Of a stretch of 41,071 bases of DNA, positions 1 to 17,633 are shown one piece after another. The position numbers and the translations under genes were made by a program. Below the pieces are notes generated by a model that ran no database searches, had not been told where the DNA came from, and was given only the letters and a program-made list of their open reading frames with translations. This stretch comes from Deltaproteobacteria bacterium (GTDB lineage: Bacteria; Desulfobacterota; GWC2-55-46), in the NCBI GenBank assembly GCA_016182655.1, contig JACPGB010000041.1, forward strand, positions 1 through 41,071, in the 5' to 3' direction. Position 1 is the stretch's first letter, and every line of letters begins with the position of its first letter.

Positions 1-746
1 GGCGTTATGAACATGGGGATGAGCTCTGCGCCGGTCTTCTCCGAAAGGAGCGCGGGGCCCAAGGGGAACTCGACGGCCTGTCCGCAGAGCCTGAACCGGG
101 AAAACCTCCCGACCTTCCTCTCGGTCCCTGACCCGTCGCCGGTTATCATGATGACGCCGTTCCCGGCGAGCCACTTGAACGCGCCCCTTAAGAACCCGTC
201 GGCCATTATGACTTCGGCAGGCATCATCGCTTCGTACTTGAGACGAAGCCTGAAGGCGACGTTCCTGCCTATCCAGCTAAGACCTTCGTCAGACGGCAAG
301 CCTATCTGCTTCATCCCGTAGCCGAGCCGGGCAAGCGAGACAAGCGGCAGGTGGACCGGCCCGAAGTGGCCGTGGACGAGTATCGCGCCCCTGCCTTTCT
401 TGAGAGCGTCCTTAAGGTTCTCAATCCCCTCGATCCTTACGAGTCTCTCTATTTCTTTTTTTCCGAACTTCGGGAAGATGAAGATGAGGAGCCTGTCGAT
501 ATAGTGGTTCCTGAAATACTCTTTTACCGCGGCCTCCGCCTTGTCATCCGTGATCGACGGATCGACGCGCTTGAGATTTTCATTCAGGAGCGCCTTCTTG
601 CCTTTTGAGAATGCGTAGTGCAGGTCGCCCATCGTCCTCAAGGTCTTGACGCCTGTTGCCACCGGCACCGCCTCGACTAACCACCGGAGCGGGTACCAGA
701 CCATGAGCCTGAGGATGTCCCTTAAAGGGCTCTCTTTGACTACCAT
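1..746 (-). CDS. LpxL/HtrB-family acyltransferase, partial (3' end beyond window)
   Basis: Reading leftward from an ATG at 746, 248 codons are open and run off the left edge. The protein resembles the lysophospholipid/lipid A acyltransferase family (LpxL/HtrB), which moves acyl chains onto lipid A-like acceptors at the inner membrane. It has a hydrophobic, basic N-terminus (residues 10-30), the block GAILVHGHFGPVH near residues 120-132, and a later ITGDG stretch typical of the family. The usual HX4D/E catalytic dyad appears as H127 followed by H132, so the expected acid is missing. It starts 7 nt after the radical SAM gene at 754 and is the last visible gene of the envelope operon. It is a paralogue of the genes at 12023 and 12962. 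The Shine-Dalgarno site is weak, so the start is less sure than the family. Confidence 0.8.
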   Translation of the reverse strand, partial: MVVKESPLRDILRLMVWYPLRWLVEAVPVATGVKTLRTMGDLHYAFSKGKKALLNENLKRVDPSITDDKAEAAVKEYFRNHYIDRLLIFIFPKFGKKEIERLVRIEGIENLKDALKKGRGAILVHGHFGPVHLPLVSLARLGYGMKQIGLPSDEGLSWIGRNVAFRLRLKYEAMMPAEVIMADGFLRGAFKWLAGNGVIMITGDGSGTERKVGRFSRFRLCGQAVEFPLGPALLSEKTGAELIPMFIT

Positions 747-753
747 CGGTAAG

Positions 754-2028
754 CTATTTGCCCTTGAGTTTGAGCGCGAAGTTGAAGGCGTCCTCTATAT
801 ACTTCGTCCCGGGGTTGGTGTAGTACTTGGGGTGAAGGAGGTTGTCGTCCTTTGTCACGAAACCGTCCTTGAGAGCTATCTCGAAGAGCTTCGTGTGGGG
901 CTCAACGCGCATGGAGTTGAACTCGAAGTGGACTCTCCTTCCCATCTTGAGGCGCGCCCTAAAGCAGAAGACGGCGAGAGAGACGAACGCGCCGAGCGTT
1001 TGCCCCGGAGGGTTCTTGAAGAAGTTGTAGGAGACCTCATAACCTTCCTTCGAGCTCAATACCTTGAATGCGCCGGTGATGTCCCTCTTGGTCAGGTTCT
1101 TCTGCAAGGCCTTCAATACAGCGTCTGAAAAACCGTCGGGCGAGAGGATCACCTTTTTGCACCCGGCCTTTACGGCGAGGTCGATGAATTCGGGCGTTAT
1201 CTCCCTTTCGCTGAACCACGCCGACCACTCGGCCTTGACCTTGCGGTCTATCATCTCCCGGCATATCGCCTCCGCGTGCTTTATGGGGATGTTGAAGACG
1301 GAATCGACGAAGGTGAACCTCTTCGCGCCGTGCCTGCTGACAAGGGCTTCGACTTCGTCGACTATCATCTTCGGATCGCGGAGCCTGTACTTGCTGCCGT
1401 TCAAAAAGCCGTAGATGCAGTAGATGCATTTGAGCGCGCACCCGCGCTTGGTCTCTATGCCTATGGCCTCCGGGACTTCCCTGTACTTCTCCATCGGAGT
1501 GAAGTCCCGCGCCGGGATCGAGACGGCGTTCAGGTCAACTTGCCCGCCGCCGCCGCTGAACGCGACCCTGCCGTTCTTCCTGTAGAATACGCCGTTCACC
1601 TTTTCGGGGGTGTCGAGGTTTTCGAGGAGCTTCGGGAATATGAACTCGCCTTCGAGGAAGACGCCGTAGTCGAGCCTCGGCTCGTCTGCCATTATCTCTT
1701 TTGCGTACATCGAGAAACCCGAGCCGCCGATGATGAGCTTCGCGTCGGTAAGGGGCTTTATGAGGTCGATCGTCTTCTTGAGGTACGCATAATAAAAGAC
1801 GACCTCCCTCTTGTTCGTGGAGTCTATGTTCCGAAGGGAGATGCCGACGGCCTCTGGCCTGAACGACTCGATCTCTTTTTTAAGGCCGTTGAATGGGTCG
1901 TCGGCAACATTCATGTCGAATGCGCGGACATCATGGCCCTTCAACTGGGCCTTGAGGCACGCAAGCCCCAAAGGATAGACCAAGGGCTCCTTGCCGCCGA
2001 GAAAGGATTGGATGAGAAGTACCCTCAT
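754..2028 (-). CDS. B12-binding-type radical SAM protein
   Basis: This 424-residue protein has an N-terminal Rossmann-like domain of the cobalamin-binding radical SAM type (about residues 1-150) and a radical SAM core with C197, C201 and C204 in the CX3CX2C cluster motif (KRGCALKCIYC). Such enzymes cleave S-adenosylmethionine and often methylate or rearrange unactivated carbons. It is a close paralogue of the protein encoded at 10680: the cluster cysteines fall at identical residue numbers, and both carry an SxRNID block near residue 65 and a LExPEKVxGxxYRKNG-type block near 140-155. Its start overlaps the end of the next radical SAM gene by 4 nt (ATGA), so the two are probably translationally coupled. 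The substrate cannot be read from sequence; an envelope lipid or sugar is inferred from context. Confidence 0.85.
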   Translation of the reverse strand: MRVLLIQSFLGGKEPLVYPLGLACLKAQLKGHDVRAFDMNVADDPFNGLKKEIESFRPEAVGISLRNIDSTNKREVVFYYAYLKKTIDLIKPLTDAKLIIGGSGFSMYAKEIMADEPRLDYGVFLEGEFIFPKLLENLDTPEKVNGVFYRKNGRVAFSGGGGQVDLNAVSIPARDFTPMEKYREVPEAIGIETKRGCALKCIYCIYGFLNGSKYRLRDPKMIVDEVEALVSRHGAKRFTFVDSVFNIPIKHAEAICREMIDRKVKAEWSAWFSEREITPEFIDLAVKAGCKKVILSPDGFSDAVLKALQKNLTKRDITGAFKVLSSKEGYEVSYNFFKNPPGQTLGAFVSLAVFCFRARLKMGRRVHFEFNSMRVEPHTKLFEIALKDGFVTKDDNLLHPKYYTNPGTKYIEDAFNFALKLKGK

Positions 2029-3524
2029 GCCGCCTTTCCGGTGAGCCTCTTTACGAACCGGCGCGTGGACTTCAACCCCGTATATATAACCTTGAATACG
2101 GGCCTGAACGGCTTGCTGTTCAGCACCTCCACCGTCGGGGAGCTTACGAGGAACTTCAACACCGGGCTCGGGAACCTGCCGCCCTGCGAGAGCGTGATGA
2201 GGAGGTTAAGGTAGCTCGGGTCCCTCATGAGGTAGCTCTTCTCGTATATCTCCTTCTTCTCGTCCCGTATCTTTCCGTCTGCCTTGGCCATCTCGTAGAG
2301 CTTGGTGCCGGGATATAAGACGAGCGAGAAGGGCTGGAGCGTAAAGGGCTTGGGTATATCGGCTATAAGTTTCAAGCTCTCTATCGTGTCTGCCTCTGTC
2401 TCGTACGGGACATCGAGTATGAAATCGTAGACCGGCGGGTACATCCTGTCCTTGTACTTATTTATAATGTTGAAGGCCTTCATGAGGCGCGCGTTGTCCA
2501 TCTGCTTCCTGTTGAAGAGCTCCTGGACGTGCGCGCTACCGCTCTCCACACCCATCTGGAGGAACATGAGGCCTGCGTCCACCAGGAGGTCGAGCTTCTC
2601 CTCCGATATCGTCATGGGAGAGGCGAGACAGGTAAACGGCAACCCCACCCTCTTCTTGTACTCGACGCAGAACTCCTCGATGCTCTTTTTGTTCCTGGCG
2701 AAGAAGGCGTCGTCGGAGATCCAGACGAACCCGGTGAAGGGCATGTTCTTTTTGACCCACTCGAGCTCGTCTATCACATGGGCCGTCGAGCGCCAGCGTA
2801 GATAATTATCGTTATTGTACATCGTCTTCACGGTGTCGTTGATGCAGTAGGTGCACTTGTGGGGGCAGCCCCTGCCGGTCATCGTCTGGTAGCCGATGAG
2901 CCTGAACTTGTGCATGCCGGGGCCGTTCTCCAGGAACTTCCTTACGAGTTCGAAGGAAAGCGGCCGGATACTACCCTCGAACAGCAAGTGCGACGTATTC
3001 GGGTCGTAGTCGGGGCGGGGGTAGGCGTCGAGGTTGTGCTGGAGGTTCCGGACCGGGTTCCTGATCGTCTTCCCGTTCTCCTTTACCCAGATGTTTTTTA
3101 CATTTGAATAAGGCTCGCCCTTTGCTATTTTTTGAGCGAGCTCGAGTAATGCGTCCTCGCCGTCCCCTACGCAGACCATGTCCGCGTGCTTCAAGGACTC
3201 CTCGGCCCTGATCGTCGGGTGTATGCCGCCCCAGATGACAGGGATTTCAAGCCTCGACTTTATCTTCTCCGTTATCTCAACCGCGCTCTCGTAGAAGTTC
3301 GTCATGAGCGTTATGCCGACGAGGTCGGTGTCCTTGAGGAGCGGTATGAGCTCATCGAGGACCTTGTCGTCGTATCTCTTGACGCCCTCCACGAGGTTCT
3401 CGCCGCACGGGTCAGGGAGGAATATCAACTGCGTCGAAATACCGTGCTCCTTGAGATACGCGGACATGGTGCGTATCCCGAAGGCGGTGATGTCGGGGTA
3501 TGGGGATATAAGAGTTATCTTCAT
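2025..3524 (-). CDS. B12-binding-type radical SAM protein
   Basis: This 499-residue protein has an N-terminal cobalamin-binding-like domain (residues 1-135, with WGGIHPT near 98-104, as in BchE-type proteins) followed by a radical SAM core with C220, C224 and C227 (GRGCPHKCTYC). It belongs to the same broad family as the proteins at 754 and 10680 but is only distantly related to them. It has a longer C-terminal part rich in basic residues (TRRFVKRL near the end). It lies about 100 nt downstream of the methyltransferase gene and is coupled to the 754 gene by a 4-nt overlap. The specific reaction is unknown; modification of a lipid or polymer precursor made by this operon is an inference. Confidence 0.85.
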   Translation of the reverse strand: MKITLISPYPDITAFGIRTMSAYLKEHGISTQLIFLPDPCGENLVEGVKRYDDKVLDELIPLLKDTDLVGITLMTNFYESAVEITEKIKSRLEIPVIWGGIHPTIRAEESLKHADMVCVGDGEDALLELAQKIAKGEPYSNVKNIWVKENGKTIRNPVRNLQHNLDAYPRPDYDPNTSHLLFEGSIRPLSFELVRKFLENGPGMHKFRLIGYQTMTGRGCPHKCTYCINDTVKTMYNNDNYLRWRSTAHVIDELEWVKKNMPFTGFVWISDDAFFARNKKSIEEFCVEYKKRVGLPFTCLASPMTISEEKLDLLVDAGLMFLQMGVESGSAHVQELFNRKQMDNARLMKAFNIINKYKDRMYPPVYDFILDVPYETEADTIESLKLIADIPKPFTLQPFSLVLYPGTKLYEMAKADGKIRDEKKEIYEKSYLMRDPSYLNLLITLSQGGRFPSPVLKFLVSSPTVEVLNSKPFRPVFKVIYTGLKSTRRFVKRLTGKAA

Positions 3525-3624
3525 AAAGGCAAATTCCCTTTGATATGGCTTTAAAAGCGCCTGACAGTTTTCACGATGAAGCGGCGGCTTTATCCGGTTC
3601 CCGGGCCCGGGTCACTTTATTTTA

Positions 3625-4371
3625 TCAACTTTTGACGTAGTGGACAACCACATGCATCTTCATGCAGCGCAAGGGTGAGATGTCCGTCACCCTCTCGTAG
3701 ACCTCCGAGACCTTGAAGAGGAGCTTGCTGAACATGAAAAAAGGCGCGCCCGTGTACGCGGCGTACTTTTTTTCAAACCCGATGGACGAGAGCATCTTGT
3801 GGATGGAGCCGAGCGCGTTGAACTTGTAGTAGGTCGGAAAGGTGTCCTCCTCTATGTACGAAGGGAAGATCCTGTCCTTCAAGTCGTCGCGGAGCTTCAT
3901 GGGGAGTATGGCGCTGAGTAACATCATCGGGTGATAGAGGCTGTTCGTGGCGACGATCAGGTGTCCGCCCTTCTTTAAGACCCTGTGGAACTCCTTCATG
4001 ACCTCGTTCGGGTCCTTTATGTGCTCTATCATCCACTGCGAGACGACGACGTCGAATGAGTCGTCGGCGAACGGGAGCTTGTGCGCGTCACCTACGGCGA
4101 ATACGTTGAACGCGTTGTTCTCATGTATCGCGTCGAGGGAGATGTCCATGCCGACCTGTCTCGCGACCTTTTTCTTGAACCCGGCCATGAGCGACTTTTT
4201 GCCGCACCCGGCGTCCAGGAGCACCGTCTTTTTGCTTATCGCCGAGGTGACAAGGTCGTTGTATATCTCAAGCGTAGTCCTTGCCTTGTGGAAGTAACTG
4301 CCCTTTGGGAACTTCGGCAGGTCCATGCCCTCGACCTTGCCTGCTACAGCCCCCTTTACCGCCTTTCCCAT
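3625..4371 (-). CDS. class I SAM-dependent methyltransferase
   Basis: A 248-residue Methyltransf_11-type enzyme. The SAM-binding motif LLDAGCG is at residues 51-57, motif II around GMDIS (74-78), GDAHKLPF (94-101) gives motif III, and SFDVVVSQWMIEHI (105-118) is the characteristic fold segment after it. The reading frame overlaps the end of the deacetylase-like gene by 16 nt and has a GAGG Shine-Dalgarno just before its ATG, so it is likely coupled to that gene. The acceptor is not predictable; methylation of a quinone-like, lipid or sugar intermediate are all possible. Its place among polysaccharide and acyltransferase genes favours a surface-polymer precursor. Confidence 0.85.
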   Translation of the reverse strand: MGKAVKGAVAGKVEGMDLPKFPKGSYFHKARTTLEIYNDLVTSAISKKTVLLDAGCGKKSLMAGFKKKVARQVGMDISLDAIHENNAFNVFAVGDAHKLPFADDSFDVVVSQWMIEHIKDPNEVMKEFHRVLKKGGHLIVATNSLYHPMMLLSAILPMKLRDDLKDRIFPSYIEEDTFPTYYKFNALGSIHKMLSSIGFEKKYAAYTGAPFFMFSKLLFKVSEVYERVTDISPLRCMKMHVVVHYVKS

Positions 4372-6275
4372 GCCTCAAACTCCTTGTATATTTCCTTTGC
4401 CGTAGACCACCTGACCCTGGCGCCGTATCCGTCGACCACGGAGAGAAAGTTGTCCAGCCCCCTTATCGCATCTTCGTCTACAGGGTTACTCGGGCTGAAC
4501 CGGGTTCTACCCTGGTACTCGACCTCGTGCGTTACGAAGCCCCATGAAGCAGGCTTCCCGTCCTCCGCGTCCTTTACAGCGGCGTCGAGATACGGCCTTA
4601 ACCTCTCGAAGTCTCCTGTGCCGATGGTCGTGGACGAGTACCAGAGGTTCGGCGGCACATGGTCGAGATAGAGGAGCTGACCGGCCGCCCTGTGCTCGGC
4701 GAACCTGCCGCCTTCGTAGTCGGGCCGCCACGGGTGGATGAGCGCGCCCTTGTCCCTGTATCTCCTGTTGCCTCCGAGCCCCCAGTCGTCTCTCCCGCGC
4801 ATCCCCTCTATGGGCGCGGGGTCGAGCGGCGAGTTGTTGCCTGTTATGACCCTGTAGCCGGTACGGGCCGCGTTCGAGAATGCGTCCCTAAGAGGTGTTG
4901 TGAGCCTCTTTGTCCCGGAAATGGATACGACCTCGGAGACGCCGGCCCTCAAAATGGAATCCCGAGTCTTCCGCCACTGGTCGAACATGTCGGTGTGGAC
5001 ATGCGAGCCGACCTCGTGGCCCCTTCTTTCAAGGTCAGTAAGTATGTTGTCCCGCCCCTGGTACTTGAGGGCGGAGTCCGCGAACCCCTGGAGCGGATGA
5101 AAGACGCCGCGCGCCCCGTGTGATTCAAGGGTCGCGGCTATCCTCTCTACCGCCTTTACCGTCCCCTCGAAGTCCTCCCTCGTGCCAATCTTGAACTCCG
5201 GGTCGGTCTGTCCGTTCGAGTGTATGTGCACTACATAGAAGACCTTGAGCGCCTTTGAGTCCGCGGAAGCCCCGTGGTTTGCGCCCTCTCCCATGCCGCT
5301 TTCAAGGTACTCGTATGCCTTCGTTAAATCTTTTCTCGTCGTATAATTCAGCGCGCCATCCGAGACGAGCCTGTCGATGCGCGATAGAAACTCGTCAAAT
5401 TTTCTGAGGCGTTCTTCGTTTATCCTCCCTACCCTGTTGACTGCTGTAGAGCCCGAAGGGTTAAGGAAGTAATAATCGTGTATCGCAACGGGGAAGTAGT
5501 TTATTGGCCCGCGCCTCGGACGCCTCAAAAAAAAGTTGAGCTTGGAGAGCGCGTCGTCAAACCCGCCGTCGTCCTCCTTGAAGAGATACCCCGAGCCGTC
5601 GTAGTGGCCGACGGCGAGTATGCCCTTCGGGTCTTCCCTGATAACGTCGCCCCTGCAAGAGAGCGGGTCGGCGACGGCCCACGAGTCTCTGGCGACCCTT
5701 ACGGGTACGCTCGATTTTACGCACCACCTGAAGGAGCTCGTTATGCCGCTCCCGTACATGTCAACGGTCATTTGCTCAAGGGCCTCAATTCTATCGTACC
5801 TGTTGAAGGCCCTCTTTTCGGCGTCGAAAAACGGCTCGGAATTAAAGCTCGTCGTGAACGAGACGACCTCCTTGGCCCCGGCCTTTTTTATGTCCCTTAT
5901 GGTCGAGCCTACGGTAATCTCAGGCGGCCCCCACGCGTGATAGTGCGCGCCTATCTCGTGGCCGCGCGCTTCGAGCTCCTCTATCGCGTTAGTCCCGCCG
6001 CCGAACCTTTCAATGGAGCGCGGATATATGTCGAGGAACATGAACGAGCCCCGCGCCTTGTGCCTCTCAAGGATGGAGGCGAGGCGCGTTAACAGCTCGG
6101 TTTCTATCGCATACTCCTCGGCATTCTTTACTATCGCCTCGGTGTGGAACTCGATATAGAAAAATACCGGTTCCTGTACTGCGGCCCTCAAGCAACTTAC
6201 CGGGCCGAGCGAGAGCATGAAAAATGCGAGCGCGGCAAGACATATGGTCCTTAAAAATCTCATGGCTTCATCCAA
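4356..6275 (-). CDS. secreted double-domain polysaccharide deacetylase-like protein
   Basis: A 639-residue protein with an N-terminal signal sequence (hydrophobic about 9-25, after MRFLRT; a second possible start is the Met at residue 5). It carries two similar halves, about 36-320 and 344-639. Each begins with a strand rich in His/Glu (FFYIEFHTE; VFYVVHIHS) and has a RGHEhGxHxH motif (H106/H111/H113 and H420/H425/H427), as in NodB-like (CE4) deacetylases that use an HxxxH metal site. The classical TFDDG Asp motif is not visible, so it may be a divergent hydrolase rather than a true deacetylase. It sits between an alpha/beta hydrolase and a methyltransferase. Periplasmic trimming or deacetylation of the exported glycan is inferred. 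Confidence 0.7.
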   Translation of the reverse strand: MDEAMRFLRTICLAALAFFMLSLGPVSCLRAAVQEPVFFYIEFHTEAIVKNAEEYAIETELLTRLASILERHKARGSFMFLDIYPRSIERFGGGTNAIEELEARGHEIGAHYHAWGPPEITVGSTIRDIKKAGAKEVVSFTTSFNSEPFFDAEKRAFNRYDRIEALEQMTVDMYGSGITSSFRWCVKSSVPVRVARDSWAVADPLSCRGDVIREDPKGILAVGHYDGSGYLFKEDDGGFDDALSKLNFFLRRPRRGPINYFPVAIHDYYFLNPSGSTAVNRVGRINEERLRKFDEFLSRIDRLVSDGALNYTTRKDLTKAYEYLESGMGEGANHGASADSKALKVFYVVHIHSNGQTDPEFKIGTREDFEGTVKAVERIAATLESHGARGVFHPLQGFADSALKYQGRDNILTDLERRGHEVGSHVHTDMFDQWRKTRDSILRAGVSEVVSISGTKRLTTPLRDAFSNAARTGYRVITGNNSPLDPAPIEGMRGRDDWGLGGNRRYRDKGALIHPWRPDYEGGRFAEHRAAGQLLYLDHVPPNLWYSSTTIGTGDFERLRPYLDAAVKDAEDGKPASWGFVTHEVEYQGRTRFSPSNPVDEDAIRGLDNFLSVVDGYGARVRWSTAKEIYKEFEAWERR

Positions 6276-6284
6276 AAATTAAGG

Positions 6285-6307
6285 CCGCTCTAAAAATTAG
6301 CAATTTT
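6285..6307. repeat. small AT-rich hairpin, CTAAAAATT arms
   Basis: In the short gap between the hydrolase and the deacetylase-like gene, the arms CTAAAAATT and AATTTTTAG form a 9-bp stem around a 3-nt loop (about 6290-6310). The same CTAAAAATT arm bounds the large palindrome at 25114-25242, hinting at a dispersed element. There is no GC-rich stem, so a conventional terminator is unlikely. Confidence 0.45.
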
Positions 6308-6312
6308 TAGCT

Positions 6313-7629
6313 TTAAGAAGCCGCCATCTCCCGGATATACTTCAAGAGCTCATCCGGCATTACCATCCCCTTGCCCGGGAGCCACCTCGGAGGGCTCGCA
6401 TTCGAATAGGACCTGTTCGGCTCGTTTTCGGAACCGTTTACCCTCGTCCAAACGGCCTGCCCCGTGCCGCCGAACGAAGCGTTAGTCGCGGCGTTCACAA
6501 GGTCTATGGCGTGGTCGTTCGCGCTCTGCGTGTGGTCCCTTTCGTTCTGGAGCCTGAGATACTTTATCTTGAGGGACCGTATCCACCTTACAGGCTCCCT
6601 CTCGCTCCACCACTTCGCGTCGGCAGTCGTGTGGTTGTTGAAGAGCGGCAACACGAATGATGTGTTGTTGAGAGTTATGTAGAACCTGTCGGCCGGGCCC
6701 TCGACATCGATGAGATACTTTACAGGCGTCTTGTGCCTTGAGAGCGCGCCCGCGCCGAGCGCTATGCCGTAGGAGCGCGTCACAACCCCGACATTGTTCT
6801 TATCGACCATTTCGAGAGAGGCGACATGGTTGATGAAAGCCGCGAACCCGTCCTGCTGGATAAACCCGTTCCAGTCCTCGCTCCCCTTGGACTTGCCCCT
6901 GCCGTCCGGGTCGATGATGCCTACGACGAAGCCGCCCTGCGCGATTATCTGGGCTTCTTTTTCATTCACAGGGCTCGAGCCGTAACCGAGCGCGCCGGGC
7001 ATGAATATGACGGCCGGGAGCCTGCCGGACCTCTCGGCCGGGTAATATACCTTTGTCCAGAGCTCGGCCTTGCTCGTCGGGTTTACTATTATCGACTCGA
7101 TGTTTGAGAGCGCCTTGCCGTTCGTCATGGCGTCCTGCCTGGGCGGGAGTCCCTGTTGAGGAGGCGGCATCTGCGGCGGCGCGCCGTTCGGCGGCATTTG
7201 TCTGTTAGGCATAGGCGAGGCCTGCGCCGAGACCGTCGGGTCTATCTTCTTCAAGTCCGCGAGCAGCCTGTCCATCGCCTCATACGCCGCGGCCGGGTCC
7301 CGCCCGGCATCGTTCTTAAGCTTCATTATCGTCCCGGGAGGGGCTATTCTCATCACATCGTCCATCTTGCCCGATGCGGCAATGGAGCGTACCCACATCA
7401 TCGCGAACGACGCCCTCTTCTCGAAGTTCGCGGCGTCCGTCCTCTCCTCAATCCCTTTTTTCACCGTTTCCATATCCTGGGGGCTAAGCATCGCGCCGCC
7501 AGGTCCATTCGGGCCGCCAGGGCCTCCGGGCCCTCCCTGTCCCCCCGACCCAAACGGGGGCTGGGACGACGCCTCGCGCATGATGAATATTAATGCCACG
7601 ACACCGATGATAAGCAGTATCTTCTTCAT
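6313..7629 (-). CDS. secreted alpha/beta hydrolase with Gly/Pro-rich linkers
   Basis: A 438-residue protein. A signal peptide (residues 1-22) is followed by a Gly-Pro-rich low-complexity stretch (25-46), a helical region (50-135), a second Pro/Gln/Met-rich linker (138-165), and an alpha/beta hydrolase domain from about 175 to the end. The nucleophile elbow is TRSYG with S286, and the segment AVIFMPGALGYG (206-217) provides the oxyanion-side loop, resembling dienelactone hydrolase-type enzymes. A His near the C-terminal third would complete the triad but I cannot assign it. The start codon overlaps the stop of the ligase gene by 4 nt. The role is probably ester cleavage in the periplasm; the substrate is unknown. 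Confidence 0.7.
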   Translation of the reverse strand: MKKILLIIGVVALIFIMREASSQPPFGSGGQGGPGGPGGPNGPGGAMLSPQDMETVKKGIEERTDAANFEKRASFAMMWVRSIAASGKMDDVMRIAPPGTIMKLKNDAGRDPAAAYEAMDRLLADLKKIDPTVSAQASPMPNRQMPPNGAPPQMPPPQQGLPPRQDAMTNGKALSNIESIIVNPTSKAELWTKVYYPAERSGRLPAVIFMPGALGYGSSPVNEKEAQIIAQGGFVVGIIDPDGRGKSKGSEDWNGFIQQDGFAAFINHVASLEMVDKNNVGVVTRSYGIALGAGALSRHKTPVKYLIDVEGPADRFYITLNNTSFVLPLFNNHTTADAKWWSEREPVRWIRSLKIKYLRLQNERDHTQSANDHAIDLVNAATNASFGGTGQAVWTRVNGSENEPNRSYSNASPPRWLPGKGMVMPDELLKYIREMAAS

Positions 7630-9110: not shown

Positions 9111-10693
9111 TCAAGGTAGCCGAGGCTTTTAAGGCGCTCGGCGACGAGTTTGGCGTCCTCTTCGGAGGTCTGCCCTCCGGAAGAGTCCTGCCTCGATTCG
9201 GTGTCGGCGTAGGCGAGGCGTTTCAACGACTCGTCGCTAAGGCACTCTTTTAACACCCTGCCGTCGAGTTTTTTCGGGACCTCGATGCCGAGGAGGTGGT
9301 AGACCGTCGGAGCGACGTCGATAATGTGAGCTTCTTTGGACGAGGACTTTTTCACCGATGGCCCGGACATCACAAGAACGCCGTCTTCCTCGTGAGTGCC
9401 GGACCAGTTATTTACGTTCCACTTCCTTAGCCTCTGTATGAACTTGCCCGTCGGCGCGCCCTCTTTAAGGAGGCCGAACCCCCTGGCCCATTTTATAAAG
9501 ACGTCGGGCGCGGCAGGGTTATTCGGGTATAGATCCCTCCCCTTGAAGACCGCCTCGATCGGTTTGTGCCCCTCGGGCGTCCGCATGTTCAAGAGCTCGC
9601 GCGCGACCTCGTCGACAAGGGTATCGTATTCTTTTCCTGCATTCACTATGCCCTGGGGCTCTCTCCCCTTGAGGTTCACATATACGGCGTCCGATACGCC
9701 GAGGAAGTATACGCGCGTCTTCGACCAGTCGACGCCTACGAGCGTCAGGGGCGGCGGCAGTTCCCTTATGACGCCGAGCTTGGATAAGATCACCCTCGCA
9801 AAAGTCCCGACGCCGCCGGTCTTCTTCCTCTTCTCCTCGTCGATTATGAGGTAGCCCTTCTCGGTAAGCCATTTGTTAAGCGAGACAAGCTCACTCAATG
9901 GCCCGAAGCCGTGGTCCGAGAGTATTACTATCTCCACGCCGTCGCCGGCGGCCTTAACGAGCTCGCCGACGGAATCGTCTATTTTCCTGAATACCGTGTC
10001 TATCGCGCCTTCGTTGGGGTTCCCCTTTTTGAACCCGGGGTGGGTCTCGTCCCTGTCCTTCCAGAAGAAGTGCTGGACGGTATCGGAGGCCGTGTATACT
10101 ACGGTAAAGAGGTCCCAGTCGAGTTTCTGCATGGCGAACAGGGCGACGTCCGTCCACCTTGAGACGGACGAGACGAGGTCCTCGACGGATACCCTCCTGT
10201 GCTTGAACATCGGCGGCACGAGGCAGTCCTTGCCGAATTTATCCGAGAGCTCCTTGAAAAACCCCGGAGGCGATACCACGCGCTCGTCGTGAAAAGGCGT
10301 GGGCTCGCCTGAGATCATGAAACCGTTGACCTCGTCCGGCGGGAATGTCGCCGGGACGTTCAGCACAACGGCCTTTTTCCCGAGTTCGCTTGCGACCTTC
10401 CAGACGGGCTTCACGAGCCGCCTCGACGAGACGGCGGGCGTGAGGTCATAAGTACCCTCGGCGCGCACCAGAAAATCGAATATCCCGTGGTTGCCGGGGT
10501 CGACGCCGGTCGAAAACGATGTCCACGACACAGGGCTCAATACCGGCATGGTCGCCTTTAGAGTGCCGTGCGCTCCGCTATCCATGAGGCGCGCGATATT
10601 CGGGAGCGCGCCTTTCCTGACGAGCGGCCCCACAATGTCGAAGGTCGCCCCGTCTATGCCTATTATGAGGACTTTCTTTTTATCCATGCGCAT
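9107..10693 (-). CDS. alkaline phosphatase superfamily phosphodiesterase-like protein
   Basis: A 528-residue protein of the type I phosphodiesterase/nucleotide pyrophosphatase branch of the alkaline phosphatase superfamily. The metal-site aspartate is D14 (IIGIDGATFD), the catalytic threonine is T58 in SPVSWTSFSTG, and the later ASDTVQHFFW, LSDHGFG and SGTHEEDG motifs supply the remaining metal ligands. There is no signal peptide or membrane segment, so a cytoplasmic location is suggested. The start overlaps the end of the radical SAM gene by 14 nt; an alternative Met two codons later is possible. A role in cleaving or transferring a phosphodiester in a lipid or glycan precursor is inferred from the neighbours. 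Confidence 0.8.
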   Translation of the reverse strand: MRMDKKKVLIIGIDGATFDIVGPLVRKGALPNIARLMDSGAHGTLKATMPVLSPVSWTSFSTGVDPGNHGIFDFLVRAEGTYDLTPAVSSRRLVKPVWKVASELGKKAVVLNVPATFPPDEVNGFMISGEPTPFHDERVVSPPGFFKELSDKFGKDCLVPPMFKHRRVSVEDLVSSVSRWTDVALFAMQKLDWDLFTVVYTASDTVQHFFWKDRDETHPGFKKGNPNEGAIDTVFRKIDDSVGELVKAAGDGVEIVILSDHGFGPLSELVSLNKWLTEKGYLIIDEEKRKKTGGVGTFARVILSKLGVIRELPPPLTLVGVDWSKTRVYFLGVSDAVYVNLKGREPQGIVNAGKEYDTLVDEVARELLNMRTPEGHKPIEAVFKGRDLYPNNPAAPDVFIKWARGFGLLKEGAPTGKFIQRLRKWNVNNWSGTHEEDGVLVMSGPSVKKSSSKEAHIIDVAPTVYHLLGIEVPKKLDGRVLKECLSDESLKRLAYADTESRQDSSGGQTSEEDAKLVAERLKSLGYLE

Positions 10694-12017
10694 GCCTGAA
10701 TTTATTTATGAGGCTCATCGAAGAGTTCATGGCGACGAGCAGTACCTTGACTACCCTGCTCAGGAACTTGAGCGGCGGGTGGACATAGAAGAGGTCGGCC
10801 TCTTTCACATCCCCTTCGGGCAGGAGGTCCGCGTCCTTCTTTATTACGCCCTTCGATACCGCGTAGTTGTAGACCCCTGTCTCGGGCTCTATCCTTATCC
10901 AGTTGAGCCCGATGCCGCCCTTGCGTTTGAGGCGCAACACTATGTTGCCCTTTACGAAAAAGACGACCATCTTGAATAACCCGGCGACGGTCTCCTCCGG
11001 CGCTCCGACGAAGAAGCAGAAGCCGGTCTTGATGCCGTCGACCTCCTTGGCGAGGTTGTAGACCTTTACGACGTCCGCTTCCGTGAAGTTCTTGCCGAGC
11101 ACCTTGAGCGCGCCGCTTGAAAGGGCGTCGGTCGAGTACGCGATGTAGACGCACCCGGCGTCCCTTGCGAGCTCGAGGAATTCCTTTGTTATGAGCTTCG
11201 GCTCGGCCCAGGCGAACCACTCGACCTTGAGTTTCCTTCTAAGTATCTCCCGGCATATGGCTTCCGCGTGGCTCAGGGGGATGGTAAAGAGCGCGTCGGA
11301 GAACATGAAGTGGGTGATGCCGAGCCTTACAAGGTCTTCTATCTCGTCGACTACGTTCTCCGGCGTGCGGAGCCTTAGCTTGCTTCCATTCAGGTACGGG
11401 TACGTACAATAGTTGCACCTGTAGGCGCACCCCCTCTTCGTCTGTATGCCTACGCCGCCCTTGCCGCTGTACTTCTTGAGATCAACGAGGTCCTTCCTCG
11501 CGAACGGCAGTCTTTCAAAGTCCGGGAGAGATCTTACCCCCGTGAACATCACCTTGCCGTTCTTCCGGTAATATATGCCCTTGACCTTCTCGGGTGTTTC
11601 GAGGTTCAGGAGGAGCTCCGGGACCGCCTCCTCCCCCTCAAGGTAGACCCCGTAGTCGATATCCGAGACCCTCTCCATAATGATCTTTGCGAATATGGAA
11701 AAACCCGCGCCCCCGGCCATGACGCGCGCCTTCGGCGCGGCCTCTTTGATTATGGCGAGTGTCGGGCGGAGCGTATTGAAGTAGTAGAAGAAGTCCACTC
11801 CCTGCTGGTTGTCTATGTTCCTTATGGATATGCCGACGACGTCCGGCCTGAACTCGGCGAGCTTCTTTTTAAGCCCGCCGTACGGGTCATTCGAGATGTT
11901 CGGGTCGTAGACCGCGACCTCATGGTCCTTGAGCATCGTGGCGACCATGAGTATCCCGAGCGGCATGACGGAAGGCTCTTTCCTTCCGAGATATGATTGT
12001 ATGAAAAGTATCTTCAA
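10680..12017 (-). CDS. B12-binding-type radical SAM protein, paralogue of the gene at 754
   Basis: A 445-residue protein with the same layout as the 754 protein: a cobalamin-binding-like N-terminal domain (1-150), then a radical SAM core with C197, C201 and C204 (KRGCAYRCNYC). The start appears to be TTG (MKILFIQSY), preceded by AAGGTAA a few bases upstream. The gene follows the acyltransferase at 12023 by 5 nt. The two paralogues probably act on related substrates or on successive positions of one substrate. The C-terminal tail (430-445) is unrelated between them. Confidence 0.85.
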   Translation of the reverse strand: MKILFIQSYLGRKEPSVMPLGILMVATMLKDHEVAVYDPNISNDPYGGLKKKLAEFRPDVVGISIRNIDNQQGVDFFYYFNTLRPTLAIIKEAAPKARVMAGGAGFSIFAKIIMERVSDIDYGVYLEGEEAVPELLLNLETPEKVKGIYYRKNGKVMFTGVRSLPDFERLPFARKDLVDLKKYSGKGGVGIQTKRGCAYRCNYCTYPYLNGSKLRLRTPENVVDEIEDLVRLGITHFMFSDALFTIPLSHAEAICREILRRKLKVEWFAWAEPKLITKEFLELARDAGCVYIAYSTDALSSGALKVLGKNFTEADVVKVYNLAKEVDGIKTGFCFFVGAPEETVAGLFKMVVFFVKGNIVLRLKRKGGIGLNWIRIEPETGVYNYAVSKGVIKKDADLLPEGDVKEADLFYVHPPLKFLSRVVKVLLVAMNSSMSLINKFRHAHG

Positions 12018-12022
12018 GAGAG

Positions 12023-12955
12023 TTACCTTACGAAGTAGTCGTCCGCGTACCAGAATACCCGGAGGTACTGGGCCGGGTATTTCTTCACATATCGGTCGAG
12101 CAGCGAGATGAACTTCTGTGTGTTGACTTTCGCGTCCCTCTCGGCGTCGCCTGTAGCGTCCATCGTCATCGGCTCTTCGGCGACGAGCAGGTGCGTATGG
12201 TCTTCCTTCCTCACGATAAAGACCGGGACGACCTCCGCCCCGGTCTTCATCGCGACCCTTATCGCGCCCTCGGAGTACCTGGCCTTTTTGCCCATGAAGT
12301 CGAGCGTCATGGACATCTCGCCCTCTCTCCCGTCGACGGCCCAGAGGAGGAACTCGTTTTTCTTTAGAGCCTCCAGCGCCTTCCTCGGCCCCTTGTCCGT
12401 ATAGATGAAGTTCACCGGGAGCTTTTCCCTGTACCCTATGCGCATCCTGAAGGCGTACCTTCTCGCGAAGTTGGGGAACTTGAAGAGGAGCCCCGGCCTC
12501 TCCTCCGGAGGGTGGCGGCTTGCCATCTGGCTGACTTTAAGCCCCAGGTGCCCTATCGCGGGCATGAGGAACTCTTCGTTCCCGAAGTGCGCGTGGAAGA
12601 GCATCACGCCCTTCCCCTTCCTTAACGCCCTCTCGATATGATCGAGCCCTCTGTACTCTACCAGCGTGCGGATATTGCCTGCGTTCAGCGACGGGTACAT
12701 GAATATCTCCGTCGAATTGAAGGCGTATATCCTGAACGCCTCTTTTTCTATCTCCGGAGAGGCCTTGCCGAAGAGAAACCTGAACCCGTCGTCGAGGACC
12801 TTTCTCTTGCCGCTCGCCGCGTGGTACATGATAGACCCGGCGAGCCCGGCGAGCCAATAGCTCAAGCTCCGCGGCGCCGCCTGTACAAAGAGCCTCAAGC
12901 CCACCCAGTAGAGGAGCCTTGCGAGCTCCTGCGCATAGACCCGTAATAGTCCCAT
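12023..12955 (-). CDS. LpxL/HtrB-family acyltransferase
   Basis: A 310-residue protein of the lysophospholipid acyltransferase (LpxL/HtrB) family. It has an N-terminal hydrophobic segment (about 15-45) and the catalytic HX4E motif intact as H123 and E128 in HAHFGNEE. A downstream VDGREGE stretch and a late ARYSEGAIRVA-like segment match the family fold. It lies 6 nt after a paralogue (12962) and 5 nt before a radical SAM gene. It should acylate a lipid or lipid-linked acceptor at the cytoplasmic face of the inner membrane. Of the three family members in this operon, this is the only one with a complete canonical motif. Confidence 0.85.
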   Translation of the reverse strand: MGLLRVYAQELARLLYWVGLRLFVQAAPRSLSYWLAGLAGSIMYHAASGKRKVLDDGFRFLFGKASPEIEKEAFRIYAFNSTEIFMYPSLNAGNIRTLVEYRGLDHIERALRKGKGVMLFHAHFGNEEFLMPAIGHLGLKVSQMASRHPPEERPGLLFKFPNFARRYAFRMRIGYREKLPVNFIYTDKGPRKALEALKKNEFLLWAVDGREGEMSMTLDFMGKKARYSEGAIRVAMKTGAEVVPVFIVRKEDHTHLLVAEEPMTMDATGDAERDAKVNTQKFISLLDRYVKKYPAQYLRVFWYADDYFVR

Positions 12956-12961
12956 CCCGGG

Positions 12962-13885
12962 TCAGTTGAGCTTGCCGAACGGAGGCTGTCCGTACCCCAG
13001 GAGCCTCGCGTAGTGGCAAGGGTATCTTCTCATATAGTCCTCGAGGAGGGCGGCAAACGCCTTGACCCCGTCCTCGACGGTCTTTATATTAGAGAGCGGC
13101 GGCTCTATTACAAGCCTGTGCCTGCCGTTCTTTTTTCTCACCATGAAGACCGGGACTATCGGGGAGCCCGCCATTAGCGCGATCCGGACCGGCCCGGTCA
13201 TGAACTCCGCGTCGATATTGAAGAACCGGACCTCGGTCATGTTCTGCCCCATGCCGTCCATGGAGATGGCGAGTATTTCGTTCTTATCAAGCACCTTCAG
13301 CGCTCCCCTCATCTGGTTATTCAGAAAGATGAAGTTCGCCGGCAGGTATTTTTCGCACTCGCCCTTGAGCCTGAACCAGCTCATCATGAGCCCGTCTGAT
13401 TTCCTGTTCAGGACCTTCTCAATGTTGGCTACGGCGTCCTCGCTTGCGAGCCCGACCTGGTTTATCCTGTACCCCCTGTGGCCGAGGCCGGGCATGAGCA
13501 TGTGTTCGTTCCCGAAATGGGCGTGGAGGAGCACGACGCCCTTTTTGAGTTTGAGCGCGTCGTCGAGGTATTCGAGCCCCTCGGCTTCGACGAACCTCCC
13601 GATGTTACTGCTCCCGAGCCTCTTGTACAGGAAGACCTCGAACTCGCTCATGATGTAGTTTACGAACGAGCGCCTTACCACTTCTTTCGCGTCCACGCGT
13701 CCGCTCCCCATGAGCTTTTCGAGGTTCCTCTCTATGATCTCCCCCCGGGCCTTCGCCACAGTACAGTATAACATACCGCCAATCCTGCCCATAACATAAA
13801 TCACGGAAGCCGGCAGGAGCGGCACGACGGCCCTGAACGGGCCCAGGAGAAACCATTTTATTACGCCTCTTATCAAGGCCTTCAC
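12962..13885 (-). CDS. LpxL/HtrB-family acyltransferase, motif variant
   Basis: I place the start at the GTG at 13885 because GGGGGAGA lies 6 nt upstream and it leaves an 11-nt gap after the flippase. An upstream ATG at 14035 would overlap the flippase by about 140 nt and add an unconvincing Arg-rich stretch. The 307-residue protein has an N-terminal membrane segment (10-40) and the family block HAHFGNEH at 121-128. The acid expected five residues after H123 is H128; a Glu lies one position earlier. It is a paralogue of the 12023 protein, with a GLGHRGYRINQVG segment after the motif. It could acylate a different acceptor or act non-canonically. Confidence 0.82.
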   Translation of the reverse strand: MKALIRGVIKWFLLGPFRAVVPLLPASVIYVMGRIGGMLYCTVAKARGEIIERNLEKLMGSGRVDAKEVVRRSFVNYIMSEFEVFLYKRLGSSNIGRFVEAEGLEYLDDALKLKKGVVLLHAHFGNEHMLMPGLGHRGYRINQVGLASEDAVANIEKVLNRKSDGLMMSWFRLKGECEKYLPANFIFLNNQMRGALKVLDKNEILAISMDGMGQNMTEVRFFNIDAEFMTGPVRIALMAGSPIVPVFMVRKKNGRHRLVIEPPLSNIKTVEDGVKAFAALLEDYMRRYPCHYARLLGYGQPPFGKLN

Positions 13886-13896
13886 GGCTTCTCCCC

Positions 13897-15174
13897 CTAC
13901 CCGGCGGCCCCGAGGCTCGGTCTCTTTGCGGCATACGGGAAGAGCCCGGCGCGGAGCGCGAGATAATGGTAGAGTATTACGGACAAGAGCGCAAAGGACG
14001 CGAGCATCGCGGAGGCCGCTCCGAGCGCCCCCCACTTCGGCACGAGCGCTACGGTCATCCCCGCGTTAAGGGCAAATGCCGCGGCCCACGCCTTTACCAC
14101 ATCGGCCTGCCTGTCTATCGAGATGAGCGCGAACTCCATGAGCGTGCTCAAAAAGAGCGGGACCTGCGTCCAGGCAAGAAGGCTCAACACTTTCGAGGCC
14201 CCTTCGAACCCGGCCCCGAATATCAACCAGATTATCCAGCCCGAGAGGAAAAATGTCGCGACCGCTATGACGAGCCCGGCTACGAACAGGTACTTCATCG
14301 CCTTTGCGCAGAGCTCGCCGACCCTTCCCGCGCCTCCCGCGCCCATTTTCGAGAGGGCCGGGAAAAAGGCGATGGAGATGGATACCGGCAGAATCTGCAT
14401 CTGCATGACTATGGCCTGCGGCGCCTGGTAGAGGGCGACGTCCGCCGCGTCCCTGAAGTACTTTATAGCCATGTGCCCGGCCTTCAACGACCCGACCGCG
14501 AATATCACGACGAGGCCGAGAGTATAGGCCTCCTTGATGTAGAATTTGCACTTCTCGTAATCGAACCTCATGACGGGACGGACAAACTTCGTGTTCGATA
14601 TGTACATGACGGCGACGGTCCTCACGATGTTCGACGCGGCTATTGCCGCGAAGAGCGCGAGGAAGCCGAGGTCGAGGAAAACGACTACGGCGATGAAGGC
14701 GAGGTTTGCAATTCTAAAGAGGAACGTCGTAAGCGTTTCGAACTCCATCCTCTCAAAGGCCCTGAACGTCCCCATGAAGACAGACCCGGAGGCCCAGACG
14801 AGCTCCGAGACCGACGCTATGATCGTAGCGTAGACTATGTGGGGGGTGCCGAAGGAAAACGCGATAAAGACGCCTATGGCGGCGATCGACAGAATGGAGA
14901 GGACCCAGCGGACGATGAGTATGGAGCCGAGGGACTCCCCCGCCTCGTCCCTGTTCCTCGCAAGCTCCCTTATGGCTATACGCTCGAGCCCGAAGTATGT
15001 CGCCGAGACGAGGAAGCCGACGAGGGCGGTCACGAACGCGAACTCGCCGAAGAGGCTCACGCCGAGATACCGGGCCGTGAGTATGGTGGAGGCGAGCCCG
15101 GCGAGGACGTCGACTATCCTCGAAAGGAAGATCGCCGCGCTGTTTGCCCTTACCTTCCTGTCAAAAGGCCGCAA
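13897..15174 (-). CDS. polysaccharide flippase (Wzx/MOP family)
   Basis: A 425-residue protein with about twelve hydrophobic segments, belonging to the MOP-superfamily polysaccharide transporters that flip undecaprenyl-linked oligosaccharides from cytoplasm to periplasm. The N-terminal pattern (NSAAIFLSRIVDVLAGL... followed by ARYLGVSLFGEF) is typical for Wzx. The start is a TTG with GGGGT five nt upstream; no better in-frame start is apparent. It follows the chain-length gene and precedes the acyltransferases. With Wza, Wzz and an O-antigen ligase-like protein it makes up a Wzy-dependent export set. Confidence 0.85.
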   Translation of the reverse strand: MRPFDRKVRANSAAIFLSRIVDVLAGLASTILTARYLGVSLFGEFAFVTALVGFLVSATYFGLERIAIRELARNRDEAGESLGSILIVRWVLSILSIAAIGVFIAFSFGTPHIVYATIIASVSELVWASGSVFMGTFRAFERMEFETLTTFLFRIANLAFIAVVVFLDLGFLALFAAIAASNIVRTVAVMYISNTKFVRPVMRFDYEKCKFYIKEAYTLGLVVIFAVGSLKAGHMAIKYFRDAADVALYQAPQAIVMQMQILPVSISIAFFPALSKMGAGGAGRVGELCAKAMKYLFVAGLVIAVATFFLSGWIIWLIFGAGFEGASKVLSLLAWTQVPLFLSTLMEFALISIDRQADVVKAWAAAFALNAGMTVALVPKWGALGAASAMLASFALLSVILYHYLALRAGLFPYAAKRPSLGAAG

Positions 15175-15233
15175 GGCTTACCCCGGCCTTGTTGGATGGC
15201 GCGCCCAGGACCGCTTTCAGCGCGGCCATTGCC

Positions 15234-16679
15234 TTACCTGACATTTTCTGTCTCGCGGACGGAGCGGAGCGACTCTCTCGACCTCGCGTCCCCGGGCGGC
15301 ACGTCGATGTATTCGAGGAAGAGTATGACTGAGAGCCCGAGCATGGTGCCGAGGAAGAGGGCTACTATCGCGAGGAGCTTCTTGTTGGGGAAGTATATGT
15401 AGCTCTTGCTGTTCGCCTCGGTCGGGACCTTCGCCTCCTCGATTATGGTGGAGTTGGAGATGGATAACCCCTCGGCGAGCCGCGCGGCCTCGAGCTGGGT
15501 ATTAAGGTTGTTGACGGTGGTCTTGAGCGTGTCCGCCGCGACGCTTATCTTCGAATAGTCGAACTCGTTCTGGACGACGGTTCTCATCTCCCTGTCGAGC
15601 CGCGCTATCTGCTGTCTCGTCACTTTGTCCTGCGCCTTCAGACTTATGAGGACTATGTCGGTGTCCCCGAGCTTCTGAATGAGGTTGTCGTAGTAGGTGT
15701 TCCTCGCGCTCGACTCGTTCGAGAAGGTCTTTTCGACCTCCTTTTCCATCGCCGCCTTCGTCTGCTCTATCTTCTTGTATACGGCCTTCACGTCCGGGTG
15801 CTCGGGGGTAAGGTCGAGGAGTTTCTCGGCGAGGGTGATGTCGAGGTCGTAGAGCTTGGATTTGTAGCTCTTTATGAACGGGTTTGCCTCGTAGCTCTTG
15901 GACGAGAGCTTGAACTAGGGCTGTTCCTTGATGGCGACCTCGGCGGCCTTCCTTATGGCCTGGTTCTCCGTCACCTGCTGTTCTATATCGTCAAGTTTCG
16001 ACCTCATTTGCGAAAGCTCGGAGAGGAGGTTGTTCTTCTGGGTCTCGAGGTTTACGATGAGCTTCTCGCTCTTGAAGTCCACCCTCCTCTTTTCGGCCGC
16101 CTCCCAGTCCGCCCTCGACTTTTCGGCCTTCTCCTCTATATACTTGCGGGACTTGACGACGGTATCCCTGTTCAGCTCCCCGAAAAAGTTCGAGAACTCG
16201 CCGGCAAATGTATTGGCTATGTCGACGGCTGTCTTTTCGTCCCTCGCGTAAGCCCTTATCTCAAAGAGCTCGGCGTCGTCTATCTGCTCTACTTCCACAC
16301 CGGTGCCCTGCGTCAGGACCTTCTTTACATAGCCGGGCTCGACGAAGAAGTTGAAGTCGTACGGGTTGCCCTTCTTGTCCTTCAAACCGAGCTTGTCGAT
16401 GACCTTCTCGGCTACCTTCCTGCTCTCTATGAGATTCACGAAGGTGTCGGGGAGGTTGTCGGAGTCCGAGTAGCTCAACTTTCCGAAGCTCGACGGCAGG
16501 TCGCGGCTGACGAACGAGGGCTGGAGGTTCTGGAGGTTCAGCCATATCTTCGCCCTTACCTTGTATACCGGTTTGATCATGAAGGAGCCCACGACCGTGA
16601 CCCCTACAACGGTGGCGAGTATGGCGAAAAAGACCAACTTCCTCCGAAGGAATATCTGCCATAACTTTATGAATTCCAT
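15234..16679 (-). pseudogene. Wzz/GumC-type chain-length determinant interrupted by an in-frame TAG
   Basis: Two open stretches in the same frame, 16679-15918 and 15914-15234, together encode a 481-residue Wzz-family protein. The first has an N-terminal membrane helix (residues 15-35) after LRRKLV and a coiled-coil periplasmic region; the second continues the coiled coil and ends with the C-terminal membrane helix (LLAIVALFLGTMLGLSVILF) followed by a short cytoplasmic tail. They are separated only by a TAG at 15915-15917, codon 255, with no frameshift. A CAG (Gln) to TAG change would explain it. The second part could be re-initiated at a GTG at 15791. This may be a true nonsense mutation, a sequencing error or readthrough; TAG ends several other genes here, so general recoding is unlikely. 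Confidence 0.8.
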
Positions 16680-16798
16680 TTAAGAACGCTTCCTCCCTGT
16701 TTATTGCCCCGTCTGCGGCAAAACCGATGCACGGCGCCCTTGCGCCTTAACCGCTTTTTTTGCTGAACCCGTCCCAGCCCTTCCGCGGCCCCGGAGCG

Positions 16799-17560
16799 TC
16801 AGTTCGTCGGAATCGAGAAGTTAATCGCGCCCTCGCCGCCCTGGAGGACGTCCTTGACCTGGGGCCAGAGGACTATGCCCGTCTCGAGGTTGACGATGGG
16901 CGAGAGTATCTGCCCCATATGGGCCATGAACCAGCTCACGTTGGCTATCGCCACCGCCGGGACATATACTATGTCGCCGTTCTGGAGTATCTTGTCGTCC
17001 GCGAGGTTCCCGTCCTTAAAGGCCTGCTTGAGGTTGACGGAGTACACATGCGGCTTGCCATTGCCCCTTCTTATGAGCATGATGTTCTTGAGCTTGGCGT
17101 CCTCGGTATTTCCTCCCGCGTTCGATATCGCCTCGGTGACCGATGTCTCGTACTCGAGCGGGAATACGCCCGGAGACTTTACCTCGCCGAGGACGAGTAT
17201 CTTCTGGCTCTGGACCGAGGTGATAGTTATGGTCACCTGCGGCTCGACGATATACTTTGCGAGCTTCGTGCGGAGCTCGTCGCTGAGCGCAAAGACGCCC
17301 TTGCCCACGACCTTCACGTCCCCTATGAGCGGGTACATGAACATCCCGCTCGAATCTATCTTTATCGTCTTTTTAAGGTCGTCGTGCCTGTAGACCGTGA
17401 CCTCGATGGTATCGCCAATGCCCAAGACGAACTCGTCTATGGTCACCTTTTCGAAGACGGGTTCGGCGGGTGCGATCTCTTTTTTTCCATCGGTCGAGGC
17501 GCAACCCGCGAAGAGGAAAACGGCAAGCGCGAGGCTTAACGCCGCAATGAGTCGTTTCAT
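16799..17560 (-). CDS. polysaccharide export lipoprotein (Wza/Poly_export family)
   Basis: A 253-residue protein starting at the ATG for MKRLIAAL, with GAGGT nine nt upstream; a start two codons earlier would have only 3 nt of spacing. The N-terminus is a lipoprotein signal ending in LFAGC, so it should be lipidated. A Poly_export domain follows (FVLGIGDTIEVTVYRHDDL, about residues 45-65) and then SLBB-type repeats (KILVLGEVKSPGVFPL). Wza-type proteins form the outer-membrane channel for capsular or exopolysaccharide. It is shorter than E. coli Wza (about 380) and lacks the longer C-terminal region. It is the first gene of the long envelope operon. Confidence 0.88.
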   Translation of the reverse strand: MKRLIAALSLALAVFLFAGCASTDGKKEIAPAEPVFEKVTIDEFVLGIGDTIEVTVYRHDDLKKTIKIDSSGMFMYPLIGDVKVVGKGVFALSDELRTKLAKYIVEPQVTITITSVQSQKILVLGEVKSPGVFPLEYETSVTEAISNAGGNTEDAKLKNIMLIRRGNGKPHVYSVNLKQAFKDGNLADDKILQNGDIVYVPAVAIANVSWFMAHMGQILSPIVNLETGIVLWPQVKDVLQGGEGAINFSIPTN

Positions 17561-17597
17561 GAGCATAGGACCTCTTTCAAAGTTTTTTGGGATATCC

Positions 17598-17633
17598 AAA
17601 GGCACCTGTCCGAACCGCCTGAGGCGTGCCTTT
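17598..17633 (-). other. hairpin in the leader of the envelope operon
   Basis: Perfect 8-bp arms AAAGGCAC and GTGCCTTT, separated by 20 nt, lie about 38-75 nt upstream of the wza start on the minus strand. There is no following T-run, so it is not an obvious terminator. With the long leader (about 250 nt from the predicted promoter) it could be a regulatory structure, but this is speculative. Confidence 0.35.

Follow-up and report, generated by a model that had tools for sequence, protein, structure and literature searches.

A deltaproteobacterial envelope operon joining B12-binding radical SAM and LpxL-like genes, with glycosyltransferases probably encoded in a separate block

The operon and its flanks

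The stretch considered here, called the window, is one whole contig of 41,071 nucleotides (JACPGB010000041.1; contig C50 of genome G000) from a deltaproteobacterium of the GWC2-55-46 lineage. It carries a single run of minus-strand genes, lettered from A (3-746) to R (20697-22460), with intergenic spacings of -16 to +278 bases. The part from 3 to 17605 encodes Wza, Wzz and Wzx proteins, a Wzy/ligase-like protein, three LpxL-family proteins, three B12-binding radical S-adenosylmethionine (SAM) proteins and accessory enzymes. Judged from sequence comparison, this genus probably has a surface-glycan system divided into two separate blocks, with this operon as the larger of them.

An initial annotation of positions 1-17560 had named these classes together with a phosphodiesterase-superfamily protein, a methyltransferase, a hydrolase and a deacetylase-like protein, and Pfam searches recover all of them on the minus strand. 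The 4-nt overlaps that it reported are also present, three within its stretch (B/C, F/G and G/H) and another further upstream (P/Q). Genes were called by a custom-built program (classifier training accuracy 84%), which may miss or misplace genes.

The run has several components of a Wzx/Wzy-dependent locus: an initiating transferase, and Wzx, Wza and Wzz proteins that all score above their Pfam cut-offs. R joins a nucleotidyltransferase, a hexapeptide region and a sugar-1-phosphate transferase (PF00483, 56.7 bits; PF02397, 234.8; TIGR03025, 295.7 with a cut-off of 295.55). Because of this fusion of nucleotidyltransferase with sugar-1-phosphate transferase, it is likely the enzyme that initiates the glycan. 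L (13897-15174) is a Wzx-type flippase (PF01943, 72.9 bits) and O (16799-17605) a Wza-type export protein (PF02563, 67.2 bits, with SLBB). M and N (15234-16679) together form a Wzz-type chain-length protein (PF02706, 34.7 bits; PF13807, 20.4), whose gene contains an in-frame stop near 15913 that interrupts it. The gene is uninterrupted in the sister species G004 (L263), and the stop in the window copy may be a mutation, an assembly error or a population variant. The membrane protein G (7626-9110) had been read as a ligase. It does match PF04932, with a score (22.0 bits) below the cut-off of 31.7, so that either a polymerase or a ligase is possible.

Beyond 17605 the run adds, upstream of O, two further enzymes before R ends it at 22460. 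P (17884-19044) resembles scyllo-inosose 3-dehydrogenase (IolM) and passes the cut-off of NF041097 (524.5 bits, cut-off 450), three homologues scoring 514-549. Q (19041-20540) is an AMP-binding enzyme of the acyl-CoA ligase type (PF00501, 290.9 bits); its nearest NCBIfam models are acyl-CoA ligases, all below cut-off.

The accessory enzymes lie among the other genes. D (3625-4371) is a SAM-dependent methyltransferase (PF08241, 82.7 bits). E (4356-6275) has two deacetylase-like halves and an export signal, both judged by eye (PF01522, 28.1 bits, cut-off 23.1). F (6313-7629) is an S15/CocE-type hydrolase (PF02129, 28.4 bits, cut-off 23) with an export signal also judged by eye. H (9107-10693) belongs to the alkaline phosphatase (AP) superfamily (PF01663, Phosphodiest, 129.7 bits) and has no match in PHROGs. 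Relatives carry other large proteins at the place of E, among them one of 614 amino acids (L100/L101) and one at L099 2813-4735, the latter with a weak match to glycosyl hydrolase family 39.

On the left, contig C6 of the sister species spans the junction and shows A to be the last gene of the operon. Beyond A come two convergent genes (a TraF_2-type protein and a lipoprotein), flagellar genes and then, on contig C56 of the window's genome, ManC, Wzm and Wzt; several of these names, including the flagellar ones and Wzt, come from reading translations. C56 overlaps the window's left end (window 1-426, L053 11337-11762) with 94% identity, as though strain variants had caused a break in the assembly.

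Glycosyltransferases and the C17 block

The absence of glycosyltransferases from 17.5 kb of envelope genes was the central observation of the initial annotation. Within 3-17605 it stands, as no protein there has a Pfam glycosyltransferase match. The run continues to 22460, and among its proteins the sole match to a sugar transferase is PF02397 in R; no hidden glycosyltransferase was found in A to Q by Pfam. To the left, an ABC-transporter O-antigen region does lie further off, and on C56 and the sister contig no glycosyltransferase was recognised directly left of A before ManC/Wzm/Wzt. Searches of the whole genome gave 32 matches to glycosyltransferase family 2 (GT2), 10 to GT9 and 25 to GT4, none of them on the window's contig.

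Searches started from DUF362 and GT9 proteins of related loci found both families in each of the genus's five genomes. The window's genome has them at the head of a block (contig C17) that runs GT9, DUF362, B12-radical SAM protein, GT2, molybdopterin oxidoreductase, AP-superfamily protein, CysD and CysN (the last named by reading its translation). In G006, which belongs to the same family, one run is composed of Wzx, radical SAM B, one further protein, Wzy, a radical SAM protein, an AP protein, LpxL A, GT9, DUF362, a radical SAM protein, GT2, molybdopterin oxidoreductase, an AP protein, CysD and CysN. The second half of this run is the C17 block gene for gene, in the same order and at 63-84% identity, and it follows directly after LpxL A. 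Since R lies in the window's run, and GT9 and GT2 lie on C17 and are contiguous with the module in G006, the "missing" glycosyltransferases are more plausibly explained by a split locus than by chemistry that dispenses with them. With the C17 block found, production without glycosyltransferases no longer serves as the leading reading. The molybdopterin oxidoreductase, AP-superfamily protein and CysD/CysN that come after GT2, both on C17 and in G006 (L219 7078-12737), could provide a sulfation or redox step in glycan assembly.

Comparison within the genus reveals fixed ends and a variable core. The R, Q, P and A proteins of G003 and G001 share 83-94% identity with their counterparts in the window, C 71% and B 62%. 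Identity falls to 58-59% in Wza and to 25-38% in Wzz, Wzy, the AP protein and the other LpxL-like proteins. The core of both genomes contains a close GT9 homologue inside the cassette, adjoining A (by Pfam in G003, by a custom hidden Markov model (HMM) in G001), and the core of G002 contains three GT2 and two SPASM proteins. Ends that stay fixed while the core is exchanged between species are what O-antigen and capsule loci show. G001, with a listed contamination of 5%, contains the cassette in two versions (L264, on 3.3 kb of G001:C122, and L054/L055); one shares 96-99.7% identity with I, J, K and L of the window, and the other resembles that of G003.

A profile search with the C-type radical SAM protein retrieved 80 loci, each ending at 10 kb or at a contig end. 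Their hosts include Desulfovibrionales, Nitrospirota, Nitrospinota, Kiritimatiellota, other deltaproteobacterial and Planctomycetota-labelled bins, and Marichromatium. The comparison of neighbourhoods across phyla proposed in the initial annotation thus finds the system recurring in several of them. Both LpxL and radical SAM labels are present in 28 of the 80 loci (labels from custom HMMs, with GT4 built from two seeds and the phosphoglycosyltransferase (PGT) and Wzz models from one each). A glycosyltransferase accompanies them in 23 of these 28 (22 without PMT), and a Wz gene in 13. GT9 followed directly by DUF362 occurs in 9/28 such loci versus 0/52 of those lacking LpxL. The five loci without a glycosyltransferase are mostly short: L098 is the sister's, and the contigs of L104, L124 and L172 measure 4.5-8.4 kb. 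A short version of the system is found in Solidesulfovibrio/Desulfovibrio (L129, L130, L132), where acyl-CoA ligase, DUF362, radical SAM C, radical SAM B and an LpxL-like gene are followed by GT2. Four loci titled Bifidobacterium breve and Klebsiella pneumoniae (L139, L149, L155, L161) have neighbouring genes resembling those of deltaproteobacterial bins and are probably mislabelled.

LpxL-like and radical SAM proteins

The three LpxL-family proteins of the window all exceed the PF03279 cut-off of 22.3 bits. A (59.4 bits) is truncated by the contig end, a complete copy of 307 amino acids being present in the sister (L048). J (12023-12955) scores 87.1 and K (12962-13885) 84.5. The longest open reading frame of K extends to 14035, and the gene probably starts at the GTG at 13885, in agreement with the sister gene.

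These proteins were compared with their relatives in the other loci, giving 47 sequences (locus proteins longer than 240 amino acids, plus the window's three), alongside 30 controls, the best-scoring PF03279 matches of relatives. In the alignment the glutamate of the HX4E motif is retained by all 30 controls and by J, the only one of the 47 to have it. The position is otherwise occupied by Gln (24), His (15, including A and K, which are HX4H), Leu (6) or Lys (1). The motif's His and the Asp are invariant (47/47 each), and Arg or Lys is kept in 46/47 (Arg in 40). On a tree the locus proteins fall on one side of a branch supported at 100/100, with J and K on long, uncertain branches. K, the one protein of the three run against NCBIfam, scores 67.8 against the LpxL model TIGR02207 (cut-off 297.8), and its predicted structure has the PatA/LpxM fold at a predicted local distance difference test (pLDDT) score of 92. 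The set thus shares with LpxL/LpxM and PatA the fold and the invariant His and Asp, and differs from them in the residue replacing the glutamate in 46/47 and in forming a separate branch of PF03279. This is the most unexpected result of the analysis.

According to PMC6286764, the His of LpxM pairs with Asp and the Glu with Arg, and mutation of the glutamate lowers the activity of E. coli LpxL about 3000-fold. The LpxL-like proteins may for this reason be hydrolases, lipid-binding partners or dead copies instead of acyltransferases, given that 46 of 47 have lost the residue. Such a role is rather unlikely: the His, the Asp and most of the Arg are retained, the fold of K is predicted with high confidence, and the family has been conserved over long times across phyla.

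Three B12-binding radical SAM proteins accompany them, each matching PF02310 and PF04055 in the cases of B (754-2028) and C (2025-3524), and with I (10680-12017) a paralogue of B at 42% identity. In NCBIfam, B and I match best with TIGR04385 (BzaD) and with TIGR04072, a lipid-biosynthesis ('ladder') family, and C with TIGR03471 (HpnJ). The likeness goes no further, since all scores lie far below the curated cut-offs (TIGR04385, 296/450 for B and 277/450 for I; TIGR04072, 254/360 and 231/360). The predicted structure of C matches OxsB, MgmA, AprD4 and CysS about equally well (Z 27-29), and solved tetraether-synthase structures are not among its listed matches. The four enzymes differ in reaction, and these matches do not discriminate between a methylase and a dehydratase for C. 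C-methylation is for the same reason one possible reaction among several. The initial annotation had proposed a new acylated, C-methylated product; an unusual envelope-glycan system with radical SAM and acyltransferase-like proteins is borne out, and the C-methylation is possible, B12-radical SAM enzymes being capable of other chemistry as well.

A probable split surface-glycan system

Gene content, the split, conservation and the altered LpxL motif are established, and the reactions and product are inferred. R would load a sugar-1-phosphate onto a lipid carrier, to which the GT9 and GT2 enzymes of the C17 block would add the next sugars. P may supply a building block of polyol or cyclitol type and Q an activated acyl one. 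The LpxL-like proteins would place acyl groups on the glycan unit, and the B12-radical SAM enzymes, three in the window and one on C17, would introduce C-methyl groups or another radical change, perhaps with electrons from DUF362 or the molybdopterin enzyme. L would then flip the unit and G polymerise or ligate it; N/M and O would set length and export the product, and E and F may trim it outside. What results is probably a surface polymer or glycolipid that bears acyl groups and a modification made by radical chemistry.

Known systems resemble this arrangement in part. Wzx/Wzy-dependent O-antigen and exopolysaccharide loci share the initiating sugar-phosphate transferase, Wzx, Wzz, Wza and a Wzy-like protein, as well as conserved ends around a swapped core. 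They differ in that here the glycosyltransferase genes form a separate block, and in the several B12-radical SAM and LpxL-like genes, DUF362 and the molybdopterin enzyme. Exopolysaccharide loci associated with exosortase A (XrtA) combine an acyl-CoA ligase, a deacetylase, a hydrolase, Wzz and a PGT in one locus, all of which the window also has. The window's proteins nevertheless score below the cut-offs of the XrtA-type families (TIGR03013, 177.6/393; TIGR03098, 261.5/592; TIGR03007, 33.4/279). In searches of an open-access paper collection, judged in part by titles and abstract openings, no description of the gene set was found; the matches included the ladderane papers PMC2649909 and PMC13142503.

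Co-occurrence within the phylum is in keeping with a system made of both blocks. Among 395 genomes, DUF362 (E<=1e-60) is present in 10, a strong C-type radical SAM protein (E<=1e-130) in 9 and both in 7 (G000, G003, G071, G307, G346, G415 and G437), a hypergeometric probability of 1.5e-11 that assumes the same 395 genomes in both searches, uses a 1e-130 line set after the results were seen and is inflated by shared ancestry. Besides these reservations, several observations weigh against the account given above. DUF362 genomes G006 and G312 are absent from the C-type list, and G177 has a weak C-type match; G245 and G263 have the C-type protein without DUF362. As 52 of the 80 C-type loci have no LpxL in view, the C family extends beyond the module and C alone does not define it. 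Within the window's genus the two blocks lie apart (in G003, DUF362 is on the operon's contig about 33 kb from A), so that their joint function there is only inferred. The interrupted Wzz gene means that length control may be lost, and loss of the HX4E glutamate places acyl transfer by A and K in doubt.

One alternative is that the core product is a small glycolipid, for which the Wzx, Wzy and Wza genes were recruited in some lineages only. The Solidesulfovibrio-type run from ligase to LpxL has no Wz gene inside it, and less than half of the 28 loci have one. Absence is weak evidence in loci truncated at 10 kb or by the end of a contig, and the window carries a full export set; this alternative is thus also somewhat unlikely.

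Another is that the operon borrows glycosyltransferases from the neighbouring ManC/Wzm/Wzt region, to which the C17 block would then belong. That region lies left of the flagellar genes on C56, and in G003 it is rich in glycosyltransferases and on the operon's own contig. ABC-type loci need no Wzx or Wzy, however, and GT9-DUF362 accompanies the LpxL and radical SAM genes in G006, L117, L120, L121 and other loci, which makes borrowing improbable. Slightly less probable still is a product made without glycosyltransferases, as the initial annotation had supposed. R would then add one sugar, to be modified by the LpxL-like and radical SAM proteins and polymerised by G, and C17 would be unrelated. 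The window's contig and the sister's operon-bearing contigs (C37 and C6 of G004) lack glycosyltransferase genes, but G006 joins the C17 block to the operon genes, and of the 28 related loci 23 have a glycosyltransferase (one of them only PMT), those without being mostly fragments or the sister's own.

With the split taken as the explanation, the missing sugar transferases are not unusual, and what remains is an uncharacterised module on an otherwise familiar assembly system. It is the combination of enzymes that is unusual and undescribed. A more tentative proposal is that the module represents a cross-phylum anaerobic pathway whose product would be a chemically new surface glycan or glycolipid. 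The glutamate-less LpxL-fold proteins and paired B12-radical SAM enzymes might together act on intermediates of sugar or cyclitol type linked to lipid, for instance by joining, branching or rearranging sugar-borne acyl chains.

A more general caution is that a view limited to one contig can make an operon seem free of glycosyltransferases when these genes have only moved. The analysis delineates a module, recurrent among anaerobes and present in cultured Solidesulfovibrio, that links surface-glycan assembly with B12-radical SAM enzymes, and also a subfamily of PF03279 whose active site is altered. Each of the two could open the way to bacterial surface lipids or glycans of a new class.

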